Source: Arcobacteraceae bacterium (GTDB lineage: Bacteria > Campylobacterota > Campylobacteria > Campylobacterales > Arcobacteraceae). From it: DNA of 44,618 nucleotides. Below, one piece after another: positions 34,087-42,478 of this stretch. The position numbers and the translations under genes are program-made. The stretch covers positions 1 to 44,618 of the forward strand of contig JAQUAG010000019.1 in the NCBI GenBank assembly GCA_028687375.1, given 5' to 3'. Below the pieces are notes generated by a model. It was given only the letters and a program-made list of their open reading frames with translations. It ran no database searches and had not been told where the DNA came from. Each line of letters opens with the position of its first letter. The stretch's first letter is position 1.

Positions 34087-36693
34087 ATGCTAGCTATTTT
34101 AGGAAAATTATTCGGTACAAAAAACGATAAAGAGATTAAAAAATATCAAAAAAGAGTTGAAGCTATAAATGCACTAGAATCAAAATATAGTGCCATGAGT
34201 GATGAAGAGATCCAAACGAGTATCGATGAAATTAAAGAAAAACTACAAATGGAGAGCACTACAACAAATGAAGTTTTAAATGATGTTTTTGCTATCACAA
34301 GAGAGGCTAGTAAAAGAGTCCTTGGGATGAGACACTATGATGTACAGCTCATTGGTGGACTAGTTCTTAATGATGGAAGAATTGCAGAGATGAAAACTGG
34401 TGAGGGGAAAACGCTTGTTGCTACTTTACCTGTTATTTTAAATGCTCTTAGTGGAAAAGGTGTTCATGTTGTAACTGTAAATGATTACCTAGCAAGCAGG
34501 GATGCAAAAGAGTTGGAAAAACTTTATAACTTTTTGGGACTTAGCGTTGGAATTGTGACAAATGCCCTCAAAAATGATATGGAGAGAAAAGAACAATATG
34601 GTTGTGATATCACTTATGGTACAAACAATGAGTATGGATTTGATTATCTAAGAGACAATATGGTTTATGATGTAAATGAGAAAGTTCAAAGAGGACATCA
34701 CTATGTTATCGTTGATGAAATAGATTCTATTTTGATTGATGAAGCGAGAACTCCACTTATCATTAGTGGTCCAACAAAACGAAAAGCAAGTGATTATGTA
34801 AAATCAAACGAAATAGCTTTAGTTTTAGAAAAAGGTGAAAAAATTGAGCCTAAAAGACCAGATGAACAACCAGTTATCACTGGTGATTTTTATGTAGATG
34901 AAAAAAATAAAGTTATTATGATAAATGATAGTGGAATCACAAAAGCTGAAGAGATGTATGGTGTTGAAAATATGTATGCTTTGGACAATGCAGGGCTTTC
35001 ACATCAACTTGATCAAGCTTTAAAAGCAAATTATATTTTCCAAAAAGATGTTGATTATGTAGTACAAAATAATGAAGTTATCATCGTTGATGAGTTTACT
35101 GGAAGACTAAGTGAAGGGAGAAGATTTAGTGATGGATTGCATCAAGCTCTTGAAGCAAAAGAAGGTGTAAAAATCCAAGATGAATCACAAACTTTAGCTG
35201 ATATCACTTTTCAAAATTATTTTAGAATGTATACAACACTGGCAGGTATGACAGGAACTGCGCAAACTGAAGCTACTGAATTTGCAGAGATTTATAACCT
35301 TGATGTTGTAAGTATCCCTACAAATGTACCTGTGCAAAGAGTTGATAAAAATGATTTAATTTTCAAAAGTGAAAGGGAAAAATTTGATGCAATTTGCTTA
35401 AAAATCAAAGAGTATAGTGATAGAGGGCAACCTGTTCTTGTTGGAACTACTTCGATTGAAAAGAGTGAATATCTTCATAATCTTTTAAAAGAGAAAAAAA
35501 TAGCTCACACTGTTTTAAATGCAAAACAACACGAGAAAGAGGGAAAAATCGTAGAAAATGCTGGTATTAAAGGAGCTGTTACAATTGCTACAAATATGGC
35601 TGGTAGAGGAGTTGATATTAAACTTCCAAAAGAATGTTTAGAACTTGGTGGTTTGGCAATTATTGCAACTGAAAGACACGAAAGTAGAAGGATTGATAAT
35701 CAGCTTAGAGGACGAAGTGGACGACAAGGGGATATTGGTGAATCACAATTTTATCTAAGCCTTGAAGATAATCTTTTACGAATATTTGGAAGTGATAAGA
35801 TTGCAAATATTATGACAAGACTTGGTATTGAAGAGGGTGAACATATAGAATCTGGTATGGTTACAAGAGCTGTAGAAAATGCTCAAAAAAAAGTTGAATC
35901 TATGCACTTTGAAAGTAGAAAACATCTTTTAGAGTATGATGATGTAGCCAATGAGCAAAGAAAAGTTATCTATAAATTTAGAAATGATTTGTTAAGTAAA
36001 GAGTATGACATTGACTCAAAAATCAAAGAAAATATCGCTGAATATGTAACAAATCTTATGCAACATGCAGAGTTTTTAAGTACATCGGCGATGATGGATG
36101 ATTTTAACTATGAGCATATTGTTTTAAAATTGCAAGAGGAACTTGGTGTTCATATCACAAAAGAGGAGATCAGTGATAATGATAAACAGCTTGTGAGTCA
36201 AAAACTTTTAGCACTTGTTCAGTCAAAATATGATGAAAAAATGTCAATGGCGGCAGATGAACAAAGACAAGAGATAGAAAAAATCCTTTATCTTCAAATC
36301 CTTGATAGTTCTTGGAGAGACCATCTTTATACGATGGATACACTTAAAACTGGTATCGGACTTAGAGGATACAATCAAAAAGACCCACTTGTTGAGTATA
36401 AAAAAGAGAGCTACAATATGTTTATTGAGCTTATTGCTTCTATTAAATTAGAGATTGTTAAAATTTTATTTACAGTAAGACTCAGAGATGAAGAGGCTGA
36501 AAGAAGAGAAATTGAAGCTTTAAAAGCAAAAATGGAACAATCAAACGAAGCACTTTTTACAAATAAAGAGGAGCAAGCTGAGGTTGTAGCAAAAAAAATA
36601 GCGAGAAATGAAGCTTGCCCTTGTGGAAGTGGAAAAAAATACAAACAATGCTGTGGTGTAAGTGGTCCTAAAAAAGGTCTTTTAGCGAAATAA
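34087..36693 (+). CDS. secA: Preprotein translocase ATPase SecA
   Basis: SecA drives preproteins through SecYEG with ATP at the inner membrane. The 868-residue protein has every domain: Walker A MKTGEGKT in the first nucleotide-binding fold, [16 protein letters not shown], the DEAD-like [20 protein letters not shown], the preprotein-crosslinking region, [12 protein letters not shown] and [11 protein letters not shown] of the second fold, [21 protein letters not shown] of the scaffold, and a C-terminal zinc site [14 protein letters not shown] that binds SecB or ribosomes. It stands alone between lolA and the cbpA control region. Confidence 0.98.
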
Positions 36694-36705
36694 GAGAATT
36701 AACAA

Positions 36706-36732
36706 TTAGCACTCTGTATTGACAAGTGCTAA
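36706..36732 (+). promoter_or_regulatory. CIRCE element (HrcA operator) upstream of cbpA
   Basis: TTAGCACTC, 9 bases, then AAGTGCTAA matches the consensus TTAGCACTC-N9-GAGTGCTAA at 17 of 18 positions. HrcA binds CIRCE to repress chaperone genes until heat shock. The site begins 13 bases after the secA stop and 141 bases before the J-domain protein start. hrcA itself is not in this window. Confidence 0.87.
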
Positions 36733-36747
36733 TATATCAAGTATAAT
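36719..36747 (+). promoter_or_regulatory. Consensus sigma70 promoter overlapping CIRCE (cbpA-prmC operon)
   Basis: TTGACA (36719-36724), exactly 17 bases, and TATAAT (36742-36747) form a perfect sigma70 promoter. The -35 box lies inside the CIRCE spacer and touches its right arm, so bound HrcA would block RNA polymerase. The expected transcript start is near 36754, giving a leader of about 119 bases. Confidence 0.75.
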
Positions 36748-36750
36748 TTC

Positions 36751-36785
36751 AAAAGTTGGTGGGTATTCCATCAACTTTTTATAAT
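36751..36785 (+). terminator. Hairpin with T-rich tail (secA terminator or 5' leader stem)
   Basis: AAAAGTTGGTGG (36751-36762) pairs with CCATCAACTTTT (36768-36779) through 12 positions, one a G-T wobble, around a GTATT loop; TTATAAT follows. It fits an intrinsic terminator for secA transcripts. The predicted start of the cbpA transcript falls within its left arm. The rest of the 179-base gap (36786-36872) holds only leader sequence and the cbpA ribosome binding site AAAGGA. Confidence 0.55.
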
Positions 36786-36872
36786 TTATAGAGATTTTAA
36801 TTAAAAGAAAAAAGATAATTATGGGACACATTGCTTTAGCAATTTGGAACATACCAAGAAAGGATAATAATA

Positions 36873-37751
36873 ATGGCAAAAAGTTTATACGAAACACTCG
36901 GTGTTAGTGAAAGTGCAACACAAGCTGAGATCAAAAAAGCATACAGAAGTTTAGCGAAAAAATACCATCCAGATATCAATAAAACTCCAGAAGCTGAGGA
37001 GAAATTTAAAGAGATAAACGGTGCTTATGAAGTGCTTGGTGATGAGGAGAAAAAAGCTCAGTATGACCAATATGGGGATAGTATGTTTGGTGGACAAAAT
37101 TTCCACGATTTTGCACGAGGTCAAGGAAGTGGTGTTGATATCAATGATATTTTACGAAATATGTTTGGTGGCGGAAGAGGAGGATTCTCTAGTGGAGGAT
37201 TTGGAGGCGCTGGTTTTGGAGGAGGATTTGGCGGTGGATATGAGCCAGATTTGGATATCGAAGCGAGTTTAACGGTTGATTTTAAAACGGCAGTGGTTGG
37301 TGGGAAAAAAAGTATCACTTTAAATGGTGAAAGTTTTGATATTAAAATACCACAAGGGATTGCAAACGGTCAAAAAATAAGAGCCAAAGAGAAAGGGAAA
37401 AGAGCGCAAGGATATCCAAGGGGAGATTTGATTCTTACAATTAATGTAACTGAAGATGATAATTATAAAAGAGAAGGGGATGACCTGTACCTAAAAGTTG
37501 ATGTTCCTCTTTATGCTGCATTGTTTGGTAGTAAAGTTGAAGTGGAAACACTTTATAAAACAGTAACATTAAAAATCCCAGAAAATACAAAACAAAATCA
37601 AAAAATGAGACTAAAAGATTTGGGTGTTTTAAATCGAAAAACAAAAGAGATGGGAAGTTTATATGTGACTATCAATGTGGTTTTACCAAAACTAGATACT
37701 CTTCCAAGTGATTTAGTTGACCTTATGAGAGAAAAATTACCTCAAAACTAA
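36873..37751 (+). CDS. cbpA: DnaJ-like co-chaperone CbpA
   Basis: CbpA-type proteins stimulate DnaK ATPase and deliver clients. The 292-residue protein has an N-terminal J domain (1-70) with HPD at residues 32-34 in [18 protein letters not shown] glycine/phenylalanine-rich linker follows (about 70-125: [20 protein letters not shown]), then the two C-terminal substrate-binding domains ([19 protein letters not shown] onward). The cysteine-rich zinc domain of true DnaJ is absent, which defines the CbpA class. The CIRCE promoter upstream predicts heat-shock control by HrcA. The stop shares a base with the prmC ATG (TAATG). In Helicobacter the homologous gene is tied to hspR; no hspR is found here. 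Confidence 0.93.
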
Positions 37752-38587
37752 TGACTTATGAACAAATAATTAAAAAGTATGCTCCACTTTTAAGAGAAGT
37801 TACACATATTCCAAGCAAGGAAGTGGAGATACTACTCCTTTTCCTTTTGGAAAAGAATCCAATTTGGCTCCATCTAAACTACAAAAATGAGTGTAGTTGT
37901 GAAGAAGCTTTAGCAAAACTTGTCAAAAAAAGAGCTACAGATTTTCCAATAGAGTATTTAACCAATCGTGCTAGTTTTTATGGTGAAAGTTTTATAGTTA
38001 AAGAAAATGTCTTAATTCCTAGACCTGAAACAGAGATTTTAGTTGAGAAAGCAGAATCTGTTTTAAAAGAGATAGAAAATCCAAAAGTTCTTGAGATTGG
38101 TGTAGGAAGTGGGATAATCTCTGTGATGTTAGCTACACTTATCCCAAATATCAAAATTATGGCAGTAGATATTAATGATGATGCCCTAAATTTAGCTACA
38201 CTAAATGCAAAAAAATTTGGTGTAGAAGATAAGATAACATTTTTAAAAAGTGATTTATTTGAAAATATTGCAGATGAACAATTTGATATGTGTATCTCAA
38301 ATCCTCCTTATATAAAAAATGATTTTAAGTTGCCTAAAAATGTAACTTATGAGCCTAAAAATGCCCTTTTTGGTGGAGTTGAGGGGGATGAGTTACTTAA
38401 AAAAATTGTTGATGATACAGTGGAGAGAAAAATTAAATATTTGTACTGCGAGATGGGATTTGACCAAAAAGTAAGATTAGAAAGATATATCAAAGAATAT
38501 AAACCAAAAAGCTGTGAGTTTTATAAAGATTATGAGAAACTTGATCGTGGTTTTTGTGTAGAGTTTAATATAAGCAAAGTGGAGTAA
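37751..38587 (+). CDS. prmC: Release factor glutamine methyltransferase
   Basis: PrmC methylates the glutamine of the GGQ loop in release factors RF1 and RF2, which speeds peptide release. The 278-residue protein has the N-terminal helical domain, IEYLTNRASFYGESFIV and VLIPRPETEILVE. The SAM-binding loop is VLEIGVGSGIISVMLA, and the catalytic SNPPYIK has NPPY at 184-187. It starts on the last base of the cbpA stop and so may be heat-induced with it. An MlaF-like ATPase gene follows after 4 bases. Confidence 0.95.
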   Translation: MTYEQIIKKYAPLLREVTHIPSKEVEILLLFLLEKNPIWLHLNYKNECSCEEALAKLVKKRATDFPIEYLTNRASFYGESFIVKENVLIPRPETEILVEKAESVLKEIENPKVLEIGVGSGIISVMLATLIPNIKIMAVDINDDALNLATLNAKKFGVEDKITFLKSDLFENIADEQFDMCISNPPYIKNDFKLPKNVTYEPKNALFGGVEGDELLKKIVDDTVERKIKYLYCEMGFDQKVRLERYIKEYKPKSCEFYKDYEKLDRGFCVEFNISKVE

Positions 38588-38591
38588 TAGA

Positions 38592-39350
38592 GTGAGTGAT
38601 AGTATCATAAAACTAAGAAATCTTAAAAAAGTTTTTGGAACAAAAGAGATACTAAAAGATGTTAATCTTGATATTAAAACTGGCAAATGTACTGCTATTT
38701 TTGGTCTTTCAGGTGGTGGAAAATCAACTATCATCAAACATATTGTTGGACTTTTAAAACCTACAGATGGTGAGATACTTTATAATGATATTGATATTGG
38801 AAAATTAGAGGAAAAAGAGCTTCGAGAGGTGCGAAAAGATATCGGATTTTTGTTTCAAAGTGGAGCTTTATTTGATAGTATGAATGTTTTTGAAAATGTT
38901 GCATTTCCCCTTAGAGAACATACAAAGTTGGATGAAAAAACGATACAACAAGAGGTAATGGATAAACTTACGATTGTTGGACTTGATGCTTCAAGGGTAG
39001 CATTTCTGAATCCTGATGAACTAAGTGGTGGGATGAGAAAAAGGGTTGGACTTGCACGTACTATCATCTTAAATCCTAAAGTTTTACTTTATGACGAACC
39101 AACAAGTGGGCTTGACCCAATTACAAGTGATGTTATCTCTCAAATGATTATAAATCTTCAAAAAGAGACACATACAACATCTATTTTAATAAGTCATGAT
39201 ATAAATGAAACTTTCAAAACAGCAGATTATTTTGCGATGTTGTATGAGGGAGTTATTGTTGAGTATGGAGATTTGGAACATTTTAAAAACTCAAAACTTG
39301 AAATTGTACAAAAATTCCTTAATGGTGATAGCTCTGGAGTGTTTAATTGA
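38592..39350 (+). CDS. mlaF: ABC transporter ATPase, MlaF-like (phospholipid/retrograde lipid transport)
   Basis: The 252-residue ATPase has Walker A GLSGGGKST, a Q-loop in FLFQSGALFDSMNVFENVAFPLREH, signature LSGGMRKRVGLAR, Walker B VLLYDEPTSGLDP and the switch histidine ISHDINE. The QSGALFDSMTV-type Q-loop and PLREHT are diagnostic of the MlaF/Ttg2A group. Its partners MlaE (permease) and MlaD (MCE protein) keep outer-membrane lipid asymmetry. Those genes are not adjacent. In Campylobacter the related ATPase is known as IamA; the match is from memory. The start is GTG with GGAG upstream, and the stop overlaps the next gene by 4 bases (TTGA). Confidence 0.85.
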   Translation: MSDSIIKLRNLKKVFGTKEILKDVNLDIKTGKCTAIFGLSGGGKSTIIKHIVGLLKPTDGEILYNDIDIGKLEEKELREVRKDIGFLFQSGALFDSMNVFENVAFPLREHTKLDEKTIQQEVMDKLTIVGLDASRVAFLNPDELSGGMRKRVGLARTIILNPKVLLYDEPTSGLDPITSDVISQMIINLQKETHTTSILISHDINETFKTADYFAMLYEGVIVEYGDLEHFKNSKLEIVQKFLNGDSSGVFN

Positions 39351-40069
39351 CACTTCTTTATCAACCACAAGATGGGTATTGTTATAATAGTGATACTTTA
39401 GCCCTTTTTAATTTCATCAAAGAAAATCTTAAAATTTTTAAAAATAATCAGGGGGAACTTCTTGATATTGGAAGTGGAAGTGGAATTTTAGGGATTTTAT
39501 TGGCTAAAAACTATCCGAAGTTACAACTTAACTGTGCTGAAATTCAAGAAGAGTTTATTTTTTTAACGAAAAAAAATACTCAAACAAATAAGATAGAAGC
39601 AACGATTTTTGAAGGAAATTTTGAAACTATTGAGTTTGGTAAGTTATTTGATATGGTCGTTTCAAATCCCCCATTTTATCCCTCTTCTGTAATTCAAAGT
39701 GACAATAAAAACCTAAAAAAAGCACGATACAACGATAGTTTGCCACTTGAAGTTTTGATAGAAAAATCTTCAAAATTATTAAAAGAAAATGGAAAGTTTT
39801 TCTTTTGTTATGATGTTAAGCTTCTTGATGATATTATCTTTTTTTGTAAAAAGTATAAGATTAACATTGAATCTTTACAGTTTTTACATCCTAAAATTGA
39901 TAGGAAAAGTAGCTTGGTTATGGTTTATGGGCGAAGAAATTCTAAATCATTATTAACAATTTTACCCCCACTTATTATGTTTGATGGTGAAAAATTTACA
40001 CAAGAGATGGAAGAGATTTATAAGATGTGCAATACCTATAGTATAAAAGTGGATACAAAACAGTTATGA
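39347..40069 (+). CDS. N6-adenine-type methyltransferase, TrmN6/YfiC-like
   Basis: The 240-residue protein carries the SAM motif LLDIGSGSGILGILLAKNYP and the N6-methyltransferase motif VVSNPPFYPSS (NPPFY). It begins with the YQPQDGYCYNSDTLALFNFI substrate-side sequence typical of TrmN6, which methylates A37 of tRNA1-Val. The length fits (E. coli 245). A TTG start overlaps the upstream ATPase stop. Specificity within this methyltransferase group is hard to assign, so another RNA or protein target is possible. Confidence 0.8.
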   Translation: MTLLYQPQDGYCYNSDTLALFNFIKENLKIFKNNQGELLDIGSGSGILGILLAKNYPKLQLNCAEIQEEFIFLTKKNTQTNKIEATIFEGNFETIEFGKLFDMVVSNPPFYPSSVIQSDNKNLKKARYNDSLPLEVLIEKSSKLLKENGKFFFCYDVKLLDDIIFFCKKYKINIESLQFLHPKIDRKSSLVMVYGRRNSKSLLTILPPLIMFDGEKFTQEMEEIYKMCNTYSIKVDTKQL

Positions 40070-41693: not shown

Positions 41694-42478
41694 TACTTGA
41701 TGAGATAATAAAAAAAACAAGAGAAGATGTAGAAAAGAGAAAAGTTGATTATAGTATTGATTGGTTGGGGAGAAGTTTGGCTTACAATCCATATCCACCA
41801 AGAGATGTACGAAAGTTACTTACTTCTACAAAAGAGGAACCTATACGAATTATTGCTGAAGTTAAAAAAGCGAGTCCTAGTAAAGGGGTGATACGAGAAG
41901 ATTTTGACCCAATAGCTATTGCTATGGAATATAGTAAAAATGGAGCAAATTGTCTCTCAGTACTTACTGAACCACATTTTTTTCAAGGAAATCTAGAATA
42001 TCTTACAGGAATTAGAAGATATGTAAGTACACCACTTTTACGAAAAGATTTTATTATTGATGAGTATCAACTTCTTGAAGCTCTTGTGTATGGAGCTGAT
42101 TTTGTATTGCTAATTGCAAAAGCACTTAGTACAAAAGAGTTGCAATATCTTTACGATAGAGCTTTACAACTTGGACTTGATGTTTTAGTTGAAATTCATG
42201 ATAAGGAAGATTTGACAAAAGCTATGAAGTGTGGAGCACATATCATTGGGATAAATCATAGAAATCTTCAAACTTTTGAGATGGATATGGAACTTTGTGA
42301 TAAGCTTATCCCTATGATTCCAAATGGTAAAATCATAGTTGCTGAAAGTGGAGTGAATGATAGAGAAACAATTCTAAGATTAAGTTCAATTGGTGCAGAT
42401 GCTTTTCTTATTGGGGAGCATTTTATGCGACAAGATAACATTGGTGCTGAACTTCAAAAACTAAAATATGGAAAATAA
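41690..42478 (+). CDS. trpC: Indole-3-glycerol phosphate synthase
   Basis: TrpC closes the indole ring from carboxyphenylamino-deoxyribulose phosphate in tryptophan synthesis. From the ATG at 41690 the product is 262 residues ([18 protein letters not shown]), the normal N-terminus; an in-frame ATG at 41663 lies inside the TPR gene and adds nine family-foreign residues. Barrel signatures are [59 protein letters not shown] and VAESGV. It is separate from other trp genes and overlaps the TPR stop by 4 bases (ATGA). Confidence 0.96.

Follow-up and report, generated by a model that had tools for sequence, protein, structure and literature searches.

Results

The cbpA locus and its neighborhood

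The analyzed window (the whole stretch of DNA, 44,618 nucleotides) carries secA followed on the same strand by cbpA and prmC, and the interval between secA and cbpA holds a CIRCE operator, a sigma-70 promoter, an inverted repeat and a conserved leader element (Table 1). The operator lies 12 bases 3' of the secA stop and 140 bases 5' of the cbpA start. A zinc-finger domain was not found in CbpA by Pfam, as in CbpA-type co-chaperones, and a separate dnaJ with a zinc-finger domain is encoded elsewhere in the genome.

Table 1. Features of the secA-cbpA-prmC region and CIRCE places of the genome (positions are those of the window unless a locus handle is given)
Feature	Position	Strand	Sequence	Remarks
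secA	34087..36693	+		upstream gene
CIRCE, whole	36706-36732		TTAGCACTCTGTATTGACAAGTGCTAA	1 mismatch in 18 arm positions
CIRCE left arm	36706..36714	.	TTAGCACTC	perfect
CIRCE spacer	36715..36723	.	TGTATTGAC	contains -35 bases 1-5
CIRCE right arm	36724..36732	.	AAGTGCTAA	one mismatch, G to A (final base of TTGACA)
-35 box	36719..36724	+	TTGACA	TTGAC kept in 8/8 cbpA CIRCE sites
-10 box	36742..36747	+	TATAAT	17 bases from -35
Inverted repeat, putative 5'-end hairpin of cbpA mRNA	36751..36779	+		terminator-like; resembles hsp20 leaders of relatives
Conserved leader element	36822..36860, core 36827-36847	+	CACATTGCTTTAGCAATTTGG	hairpin ATTGC-TTTA-GCAAT or short uORF
cbpA	36873..37751	+		J-domain (PF00226) and DnaJ C-terminal domain (PF01556)
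prmC, release-factor glutamine methyltransferase	37751..38587	+		start codon overlaps cbpA stop by one base
MlaF-like ABC ATPase	38592..39350	+		217 bits vs. family cut-off of 441; operon membership possible
Methyltransferase, TrmN-like	39347..40069	+		below family cut-off; operon membership possible
Divergent HrcA gene	L032:4782-5567			N-terminal part fits TIGR00331, whole length NF003033
CIRCE at clpB				0 mismatches; gene product by Pfam
CIRCE at groESL				1 mismatch; gene product by Pfam
CIRCE at htpG				1 mismatch; gene product by Pfam
CIRCE at hrcA, two sites				1 and 2 mismatches
CIRCE at cbpA				1 mismatch
CIRCE-like repeat at dnaJ	L035:4619-4645			between recR and dnaJ; 3 mismatches; begins with TTGACA

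With up to 3 mismatches allowed, a search of the window with the pattern TTAGCACTC-N9-GAGTGCTAA returned the cbpA site as its sole match; none of 100 shuffled controls gave a CIRCE like it, and at the base composition of the window the number expected by chance per 2.54 Mb, with no more than one mismatch, is 0.001 sites. The promoter pattern TTGACA-N17-TATAAT with 0 or 1 mismatch also occurs at a single place in the window, 36719-36747. Two elements of a preliminary description of this DNA, the agreement with CIRCE at 17 of 18 arm positions upstream of cbpA and the 17-base distance between TTGACA and TATAAT, were thereby confirmed. Its placement of the -35 box inside the CIRCE spacer is correct for TTGAC and incorrect for the final A, with which the right arm begins; this A is also the only deviation of the site from the CIRCE consensus. 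The operator overlaps the -35 box of a chaperone gene (J-domain product), and we consider the site at 36706-36732 a convincing candidate HrcA operator over a strong cbpA promoter.

Judging from the position of the -10 box, the cbpA transcript would start at about 36753-36755. A clear 5'-end hairpin is predicted in five of the eight cbpA leaders that follow a CIRCE promoter (not in G004, G019 and G068), and the leader of the window as a whole is not unusually stable (z -1.5). The conserved element CACATTGCTTTAGCAATTTGG, located near the ribosome site, was found once in this genome when up to 3 mismatches were allowed. It is common to the cbpA loci of G001, G003, G005, G019 and, by eye, G068; the pattern also matches G034 with 1 mismatch. 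In G003 the reading frame of the element is broken and the pairing ATTGC-NNNN-GCAAT is kept; the candidate upstream frame in the window, MGHIALAIW, overlaps the cbpA start. A known RNA family was rejected for 36600-37000, where the best Rfam match reached 21.3 bits vs. a gathering score of 60.

Besides the leader hairpin, the scan of the + strand as far as 43300 gave only one weak terminator-like site (42079-42097, in trpC), and, given this scarcity of terminators and the overlap of prmC with cbpA, prmC and perhaps the genes that follow would share the cbpA promoter. Co-regulation of prmC with cbpA is likely; for the genes beyond prmC we infer it as a possibility, and a promoter-like match within prmC (10/12, 38091-38118) could serve further downstream genes. 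The operon proposed in the preliminary description thus stands as likely for prmC, on account of the one-base overlap, and as an inference for genes further down. The tRNA genes that it had included are not there (ARAGORN finds none in the window); a tRNA-methyltransferase-like gene was probably meant.

HrcA and the CIRCE regulon of this genome

The hrcA gene of this genome heads an hrcA-grpE-dnaK operon (grpE and dnaK identified by Pfam) with two CIRCE sites in front. The match of its product to TIGR00331 (E 6e-24) covers the first ~100 residues and falls below the curated cut-off, and the match to the HrcA family model NF003033 (E 7e-68, residues 2-259) reaches 229 bits vs. a cut-off of 248. 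The Pfam HrcA model, PF01628, has no match in this genome nor in any other of the 60 genomes searched; for this genome we interpret the negative as a failure of the model on the divergent HrcA of this group. The absence of HrcA that PF01628 would imply is thus rejected for this genome, where the NCBIfam models and the operon context reveal it, and presence/absence surveys relying on Pfam only would be misleading, as they would wrongly score this genome as lacking HrcA.

The preliminary description had named the lack of hrcA as fatal to its reading and suggested a search for other CIRCE copies; hrcA is present on the evidence just given, and a search of the whole genome that tolerated up to 3 mismatches gave seven CIRCE places (Table 1), assigned to genes from the surrounding ORFs with products confirmed by Pfam. 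Base composition predicts 0.6 sites by chance in the genome at this threshold, so the assignment to dnaJ is uncertain; a similar site occurs in G005, and weak HrcA control of dnaJ is possible. The groESL promoter, TTGACA-17-TATAAT, is as perfect as that of cbpA, and those of hrcA and clpB combine TTGACA with TACAAT, which makes a strong promoter usual at these CIRCE genes; at the CIRCE sites of htpG and dnaJ no TTGACA/TATAAT-type promoter was seen. The cbpA promoter, previously termed exceptionally strong, was therefore overrated in this respect. It is distinguished by the place of the operator and not by promoter strength: CIRCE follows the -10 box at groESL, at the hrcA-proximal site and at clpB, where, as reported for C. 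jejuni, the start would be covered, and lies over the -35 box at cbpA. Membership of cbpA in the HrcA regulon, as proposed earlier, is supported by the presence of hrcA and by the retention of CIRCE at cbpA in 8 of 14 loci without an adjacent hspR, described below.

HspR and the operators of cbpA across the family

No hspR was detected in this genome (99.67% complete, 51 contigs) with either MerR_1 or an HspR profile built from ten relatives. Of the 150 genomes searched with the same profile, this one included, 134 gave a match, and the 16 misses comprise seven of the eight genomes of this genus, all four of genus g7, two of the three of g13 and three from other families. The gene that follows cbpA in relatives is HspR according to NF047375, with a score above the cut-off (one tested). 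At the cbpA of this genome the best match to the HAIR-like operator TTGATTGACNNNGACTCAA has 6 mismatches. In a scan of 60 whole genomes, this one gave no HAIR match with fewer than two mismatches, its single match at up to 2 mismatches lies away from cbpA, and hspR-bearing family members have HAIR matches at cbpA.

The comparison covered up to 260 bases upstream of cbpA at 45 loci. These came from 44 of the 91 family genomes of the HspR search, namely from every one of the 13 that gave no HspR match and from 31 of the 78 with one; G002 was counted twice, and its second, probably foreign copy sits among the hspR loci. Removal of the G066 locus (1 base upstream) left 44 loci with at least 120 bases upstream. 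In all 30 loci where hspR follows cbpA, the HAIR-like TTGATTGACNNNGACTCAA is present with at most 1 mismatch, and CIRCE at up to 2 mismatches is present in none. The 14 loci where hspR does not follow cbpA have no HAIR; eight of them have a CIRCE that holds the -35 box (6/8 in this genus, 2/2 in g13, 0/4 in g7), and six have neither operator (the four of g7, plus G001 and G002). Genus g7 (L150, L151, L159, L160) represents a different outcome of HspR loss, all four genomes being without an HspR match and with a cbpA that has neither HAIR nor CIRCE.

With CIRCE in place of HAIR in eight of the 14 loci where hspR does not follow, control of cbpA appears to have been handed over from HspR to HrcA in a few lineages. 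TTGAC stands in the middle of the operator both in the HAIR promoters of relatives and in CIRCE at cbpA, and either repressor would therefore cover the cbpA -35 box. CIRCE at cbpA is not indispensable, as it is missing in two of the eight genomes of the genus. In G001, the closest relative by SecA (96%), the CIRCE promoter is missing, the leader element is retained and a long inverted repeat, ATTGCGAGGAACGAAGCAATCC, follows secA in the promoter's place (L187, L169); in G002, cbpA lies directly behind secA with no CIRCE and no evident promoter.

The genus forms one clade in the SecA tree (100/99), and its grouping with g11 and G019, the latter represented by one fragment of 507 aa, received 81/64. 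The CbpA copies in the secA-prmC position also form one clade (98/90), near g11. No more than a few evolutionary events, perhaps one or two, lie behind the eight cbpA CIRCE sites, and the locus counts are therefore not independent. A single origin of the HspR-less state in this genus (g1) and g13 is compatible with the tree and unsupported by it (21/59, with 12 of 51 rows left out: long branches, other families, g7 and G002b). Acquisition of a foreign cbpA by horizontal transfer left no sign, the CbpA and SecA trees both placing the genus near g11 with modest support.

The role of G002 as an intermediate with both copies was also considered, as its hspR is found on a small contig beside a second cbpA, and was rejected: this HAIR-cbpA-hspR copy groups with other families (82/65, 91/99), which, together with a 7% contamination of the assembly, makes it probably foreign. 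Two small contigs of G002, C212 and C151 (L162, L293), which carry the HAIR-cbpA-hspR set and three hsp20 matches in a row, are probably contamination.

Origin of the CIRCE promoter

How CIRCE came to occupy this place was considered in terms of two scenarios. To the first, a stepwise replacement, we give slightly less than an even chance: a HAIR promoter would have gained CIRCE around its existing -35 box while hspR decayed, and the likeness to hsp20 promoters described below would be convergent, because an operator that covers the -35 box must carry TTGAC in its spacer. The central TTGAC of the relatives' HAIR promoters fits this course of events, as does the CbpA tree, in which the single clade of the genus near g11 agrees with the SecA tree. 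On the other hand, cbpA was relocated among genera (between secA and prmC in g1, after prmC in G017, near ftsZ in G019), so that its promoter need not have stayed in place, and none of the 44 loci has both HAIR and CIRCE at the thresholds used, G015 having HAIR plus an upstream CIRCE-like repeat with 3 mismatches. In G017 (L124) a cbpA-hspR pair lies directly 3' of prmC; in this genus cbpA lies directly 5' of prmC. The change of repressor thus went along with a rearrangement at this locus.

The second scenario, capture of the promoter from an hsp20 gene with CIRCE already over the -35 box, is attractive as a hypothesis and possible, and we rate it as less likely than not. Among the examined sites, CIRCE over the -35 box was found solely at hsp20 and cbpA: TTGAC occupies the -35 place in the spacer at 8 of 8 cbpA sites and 11 of 24 hsp20 sites, against 0 of the 46 others, these counts referring to sites with 3 mismatches or fewer within the examined loci rather than to a census of genomes, with groES and clpB over-represented because L001-L030 are the best CIRCE match per genome. 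The 46 include the cbpA locus of G015 (L133, labelled dnaJ) and a recR row that reads the dnaJ site on its opposite strand; the 24 include second upstream sites and divergent hsp20 genes, with repeated loci counted once and three sites from other families or order-mates (L276, L277 twice, L284 without -35).

Evidence from the leaders is divided. In a search of 99 kb with a model of hsp20 leaders that excludes CIRCE and the promoter hexamers, the cbpA leader of the window (36748-36782) was the second-best match (21 bits, E 0.034), and those of G006 and G003 ranked fourth and sixth; yet the best match (42049-42079, minus strand in trpC, 22.1 bits) is evidently due to chance, and the leaders of G005, G007, G004, G019 and G068 were not recovered with an E threshold of 10. 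In a shuffle test, the resemblance to hsp20 leaders was equalled by 0 of 400 shuffles for G000 and 2 for G003, but by 16 for G005, 15 for G006, 40 for G007, 213 for G004, 115 for G019 and 7 for G068. Three leaders, those of G004, G019 and G068, obtain a higher score with the old cbpA leaders of HAIR type, and these three, despite their cbpA CIRCE, have weak folds (-1.4 to -3.6 kcal/mol vs. -8.2 to -16.2 in the other five). In favor of capture, a close hsp20 exists within the genus in G002 alone; those of G000, G003 and G006 are distant (29-33% identity), and G001, G004, G005 and G007 have none. A 5'-end hairpin is also present at the hsp20 of G017 (genus g11, nearby and HspR-bearing), although with a different sequence.

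The hsp20 leaders of HspR-bearing relatives carry the repeat CTTGATA-N7-TATCAAG at the presumed transcript start. In an alignment of 11 such leaders 98.7% of the cells are paired, five of the seven pairs are invariant and one shows a C-G to G-C exchange in 3 sequences. The repeat resembles the HAIR consensus CTTGAGT-N7-ACTCAAG and may therefore serve as a second operator and not as an RNA structure. Inspection of the hsp20 loci L260-L268, L272 and L279 gave CIRCE over the -35 box in most of them, with the repeat in the CTTGATA-N7-TATCAAG or the GTTGATA form. Double control of hsp20 by HrcA and HspR is thus possible in these relatives.

That the hairpin at 36751-36779 is instead the secA terminator, with cbpA expressed mainly by read-through and CIRCE of little effect, is very unlikely: the hairpin is terminator-like and located after secA, and the arrangement in G002 noted above would suit this view, but a perfect promoter lies 5' of the hairpin, six of the eight genomes of the genus retain CIRCE, and by eye no such hairpin follows secA in G002 or G004, the inverted repeat of G001 being a different and long one.

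Discussion

The earlier interpretation of this locus, HrcA control of cbpA, stands, and the comparison across the family supports a larger story, a change of repressor on cbpA. We assign a probability of roughly 80% to the reading that this genome has an HrcA-repressed sigma-70 promoter of cbpA, taken over from ancestral HspR/HAIR control. An HrcA dimer bound to CIRCE would mask the -35 box and exclude RNA polymerase at normal temperature, and inactivation of HrcA by heat or unfolded protein would free the strong promoter for production of CbpA and PrmC. In the ancestor, the comparison suggests, a cbpA-hspR pair would have been controlled by HspR via HAIR with the -35 box likewise covered; in this genus and in two g13 genomes hspR and HAIR would then have been lost and CIRCE established at the same place. 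With CIRCE in the place of HAIR, HrcA would now serve the major chaperone genes, cbpA included. Without HspR, the CbpA-HspR feedback reported in H. pylori could not operate, and control would be left to HrcA and, by analogy with other systems, to its helper GroEL.

We thus describe a lineage in which HrcA is the sole repressor found and cbpA bears the HrcA operator in the position that HAIR would take relative to the promoter, a tree-mapped example of a bacterial target gene that changes its repressor without being replaced itself. A full handover of the regulon between unrelated repressors, with hspR lost and cbpA placed under HrcA by capture of an hsp20 promoter, is a proposition that we regard as rather doubtful; if true, the major chaperone genes would be left to a single repressor and the CbpA-HspR feedback loop would be gone. 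Heat-shock regulons of epsilon-proteobacteria have reportedly been studied by Permina and Gelfand in 2003. Among the open-access papers listed in literature searches, none was found to report CIRCE at cbpA or a phylum member lacking HspR.

Comparison with known systems

In the two well-studied members of the phylum, HspR is described as the master heat-shock repressor and HrcA as its partner (in passages of PMC6843607 and PMC7464140). Passages of the C. jejuni study (PMC7464140) report that HspR on its own is enough for repression of Pcbp and PclpB and that HrcA binds Pgro and Phrc over their start sites; for H. pylori, cbpA is reported to head the hspR operon (in passages of PMC6843607 and PMC7074700). 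The present system shares with CIRCE/HrcA of C. jejuni and H. pylori the operator consensus, the repressor family, the hrcA-grpE-dnaK operon and the predicted steric block of the core promoter. In contrast to C. jejuni, where, in the account of PMC7464140 cited above, HrcA lies over starts and cbpA and clpB belong to HspR, CIRCE here covers the -35 box of cbpA and is also found before clpB and htpG, and HspR was not found.

A parallel to the HspR/HAIR-controlled cbpA-hspR operons of Helicobacter, Campylobacter and relatives is seen in the target, cbpA, and in an operator placed over the -35 box of a strong promoter; the differences are another repressor with another operator, the absence of hspR, and prmC as the gene after cbpA. 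The preliminary description was right to call cbpA an unusual CIRCE target, linked to HspR in Helicobacter, and the reason seen here is that HspR was not found in this genome.

Finally, the cbpA promoter resembles the hsp20 promoters of the family (G016, G020 and others) in having TTGAC within the CIRCE spacer, a TATAAT-like box 17-18 bases further on, and an inverted repeat where the transcript presumably begins. It differs in that those promoters drive a small heat-shock protein (PF00011) and in that their repeat, CTTGATA-N7-TATCAAG, has the look of a HAIR variant, the present genome having no detected HspR to read such a repeat.
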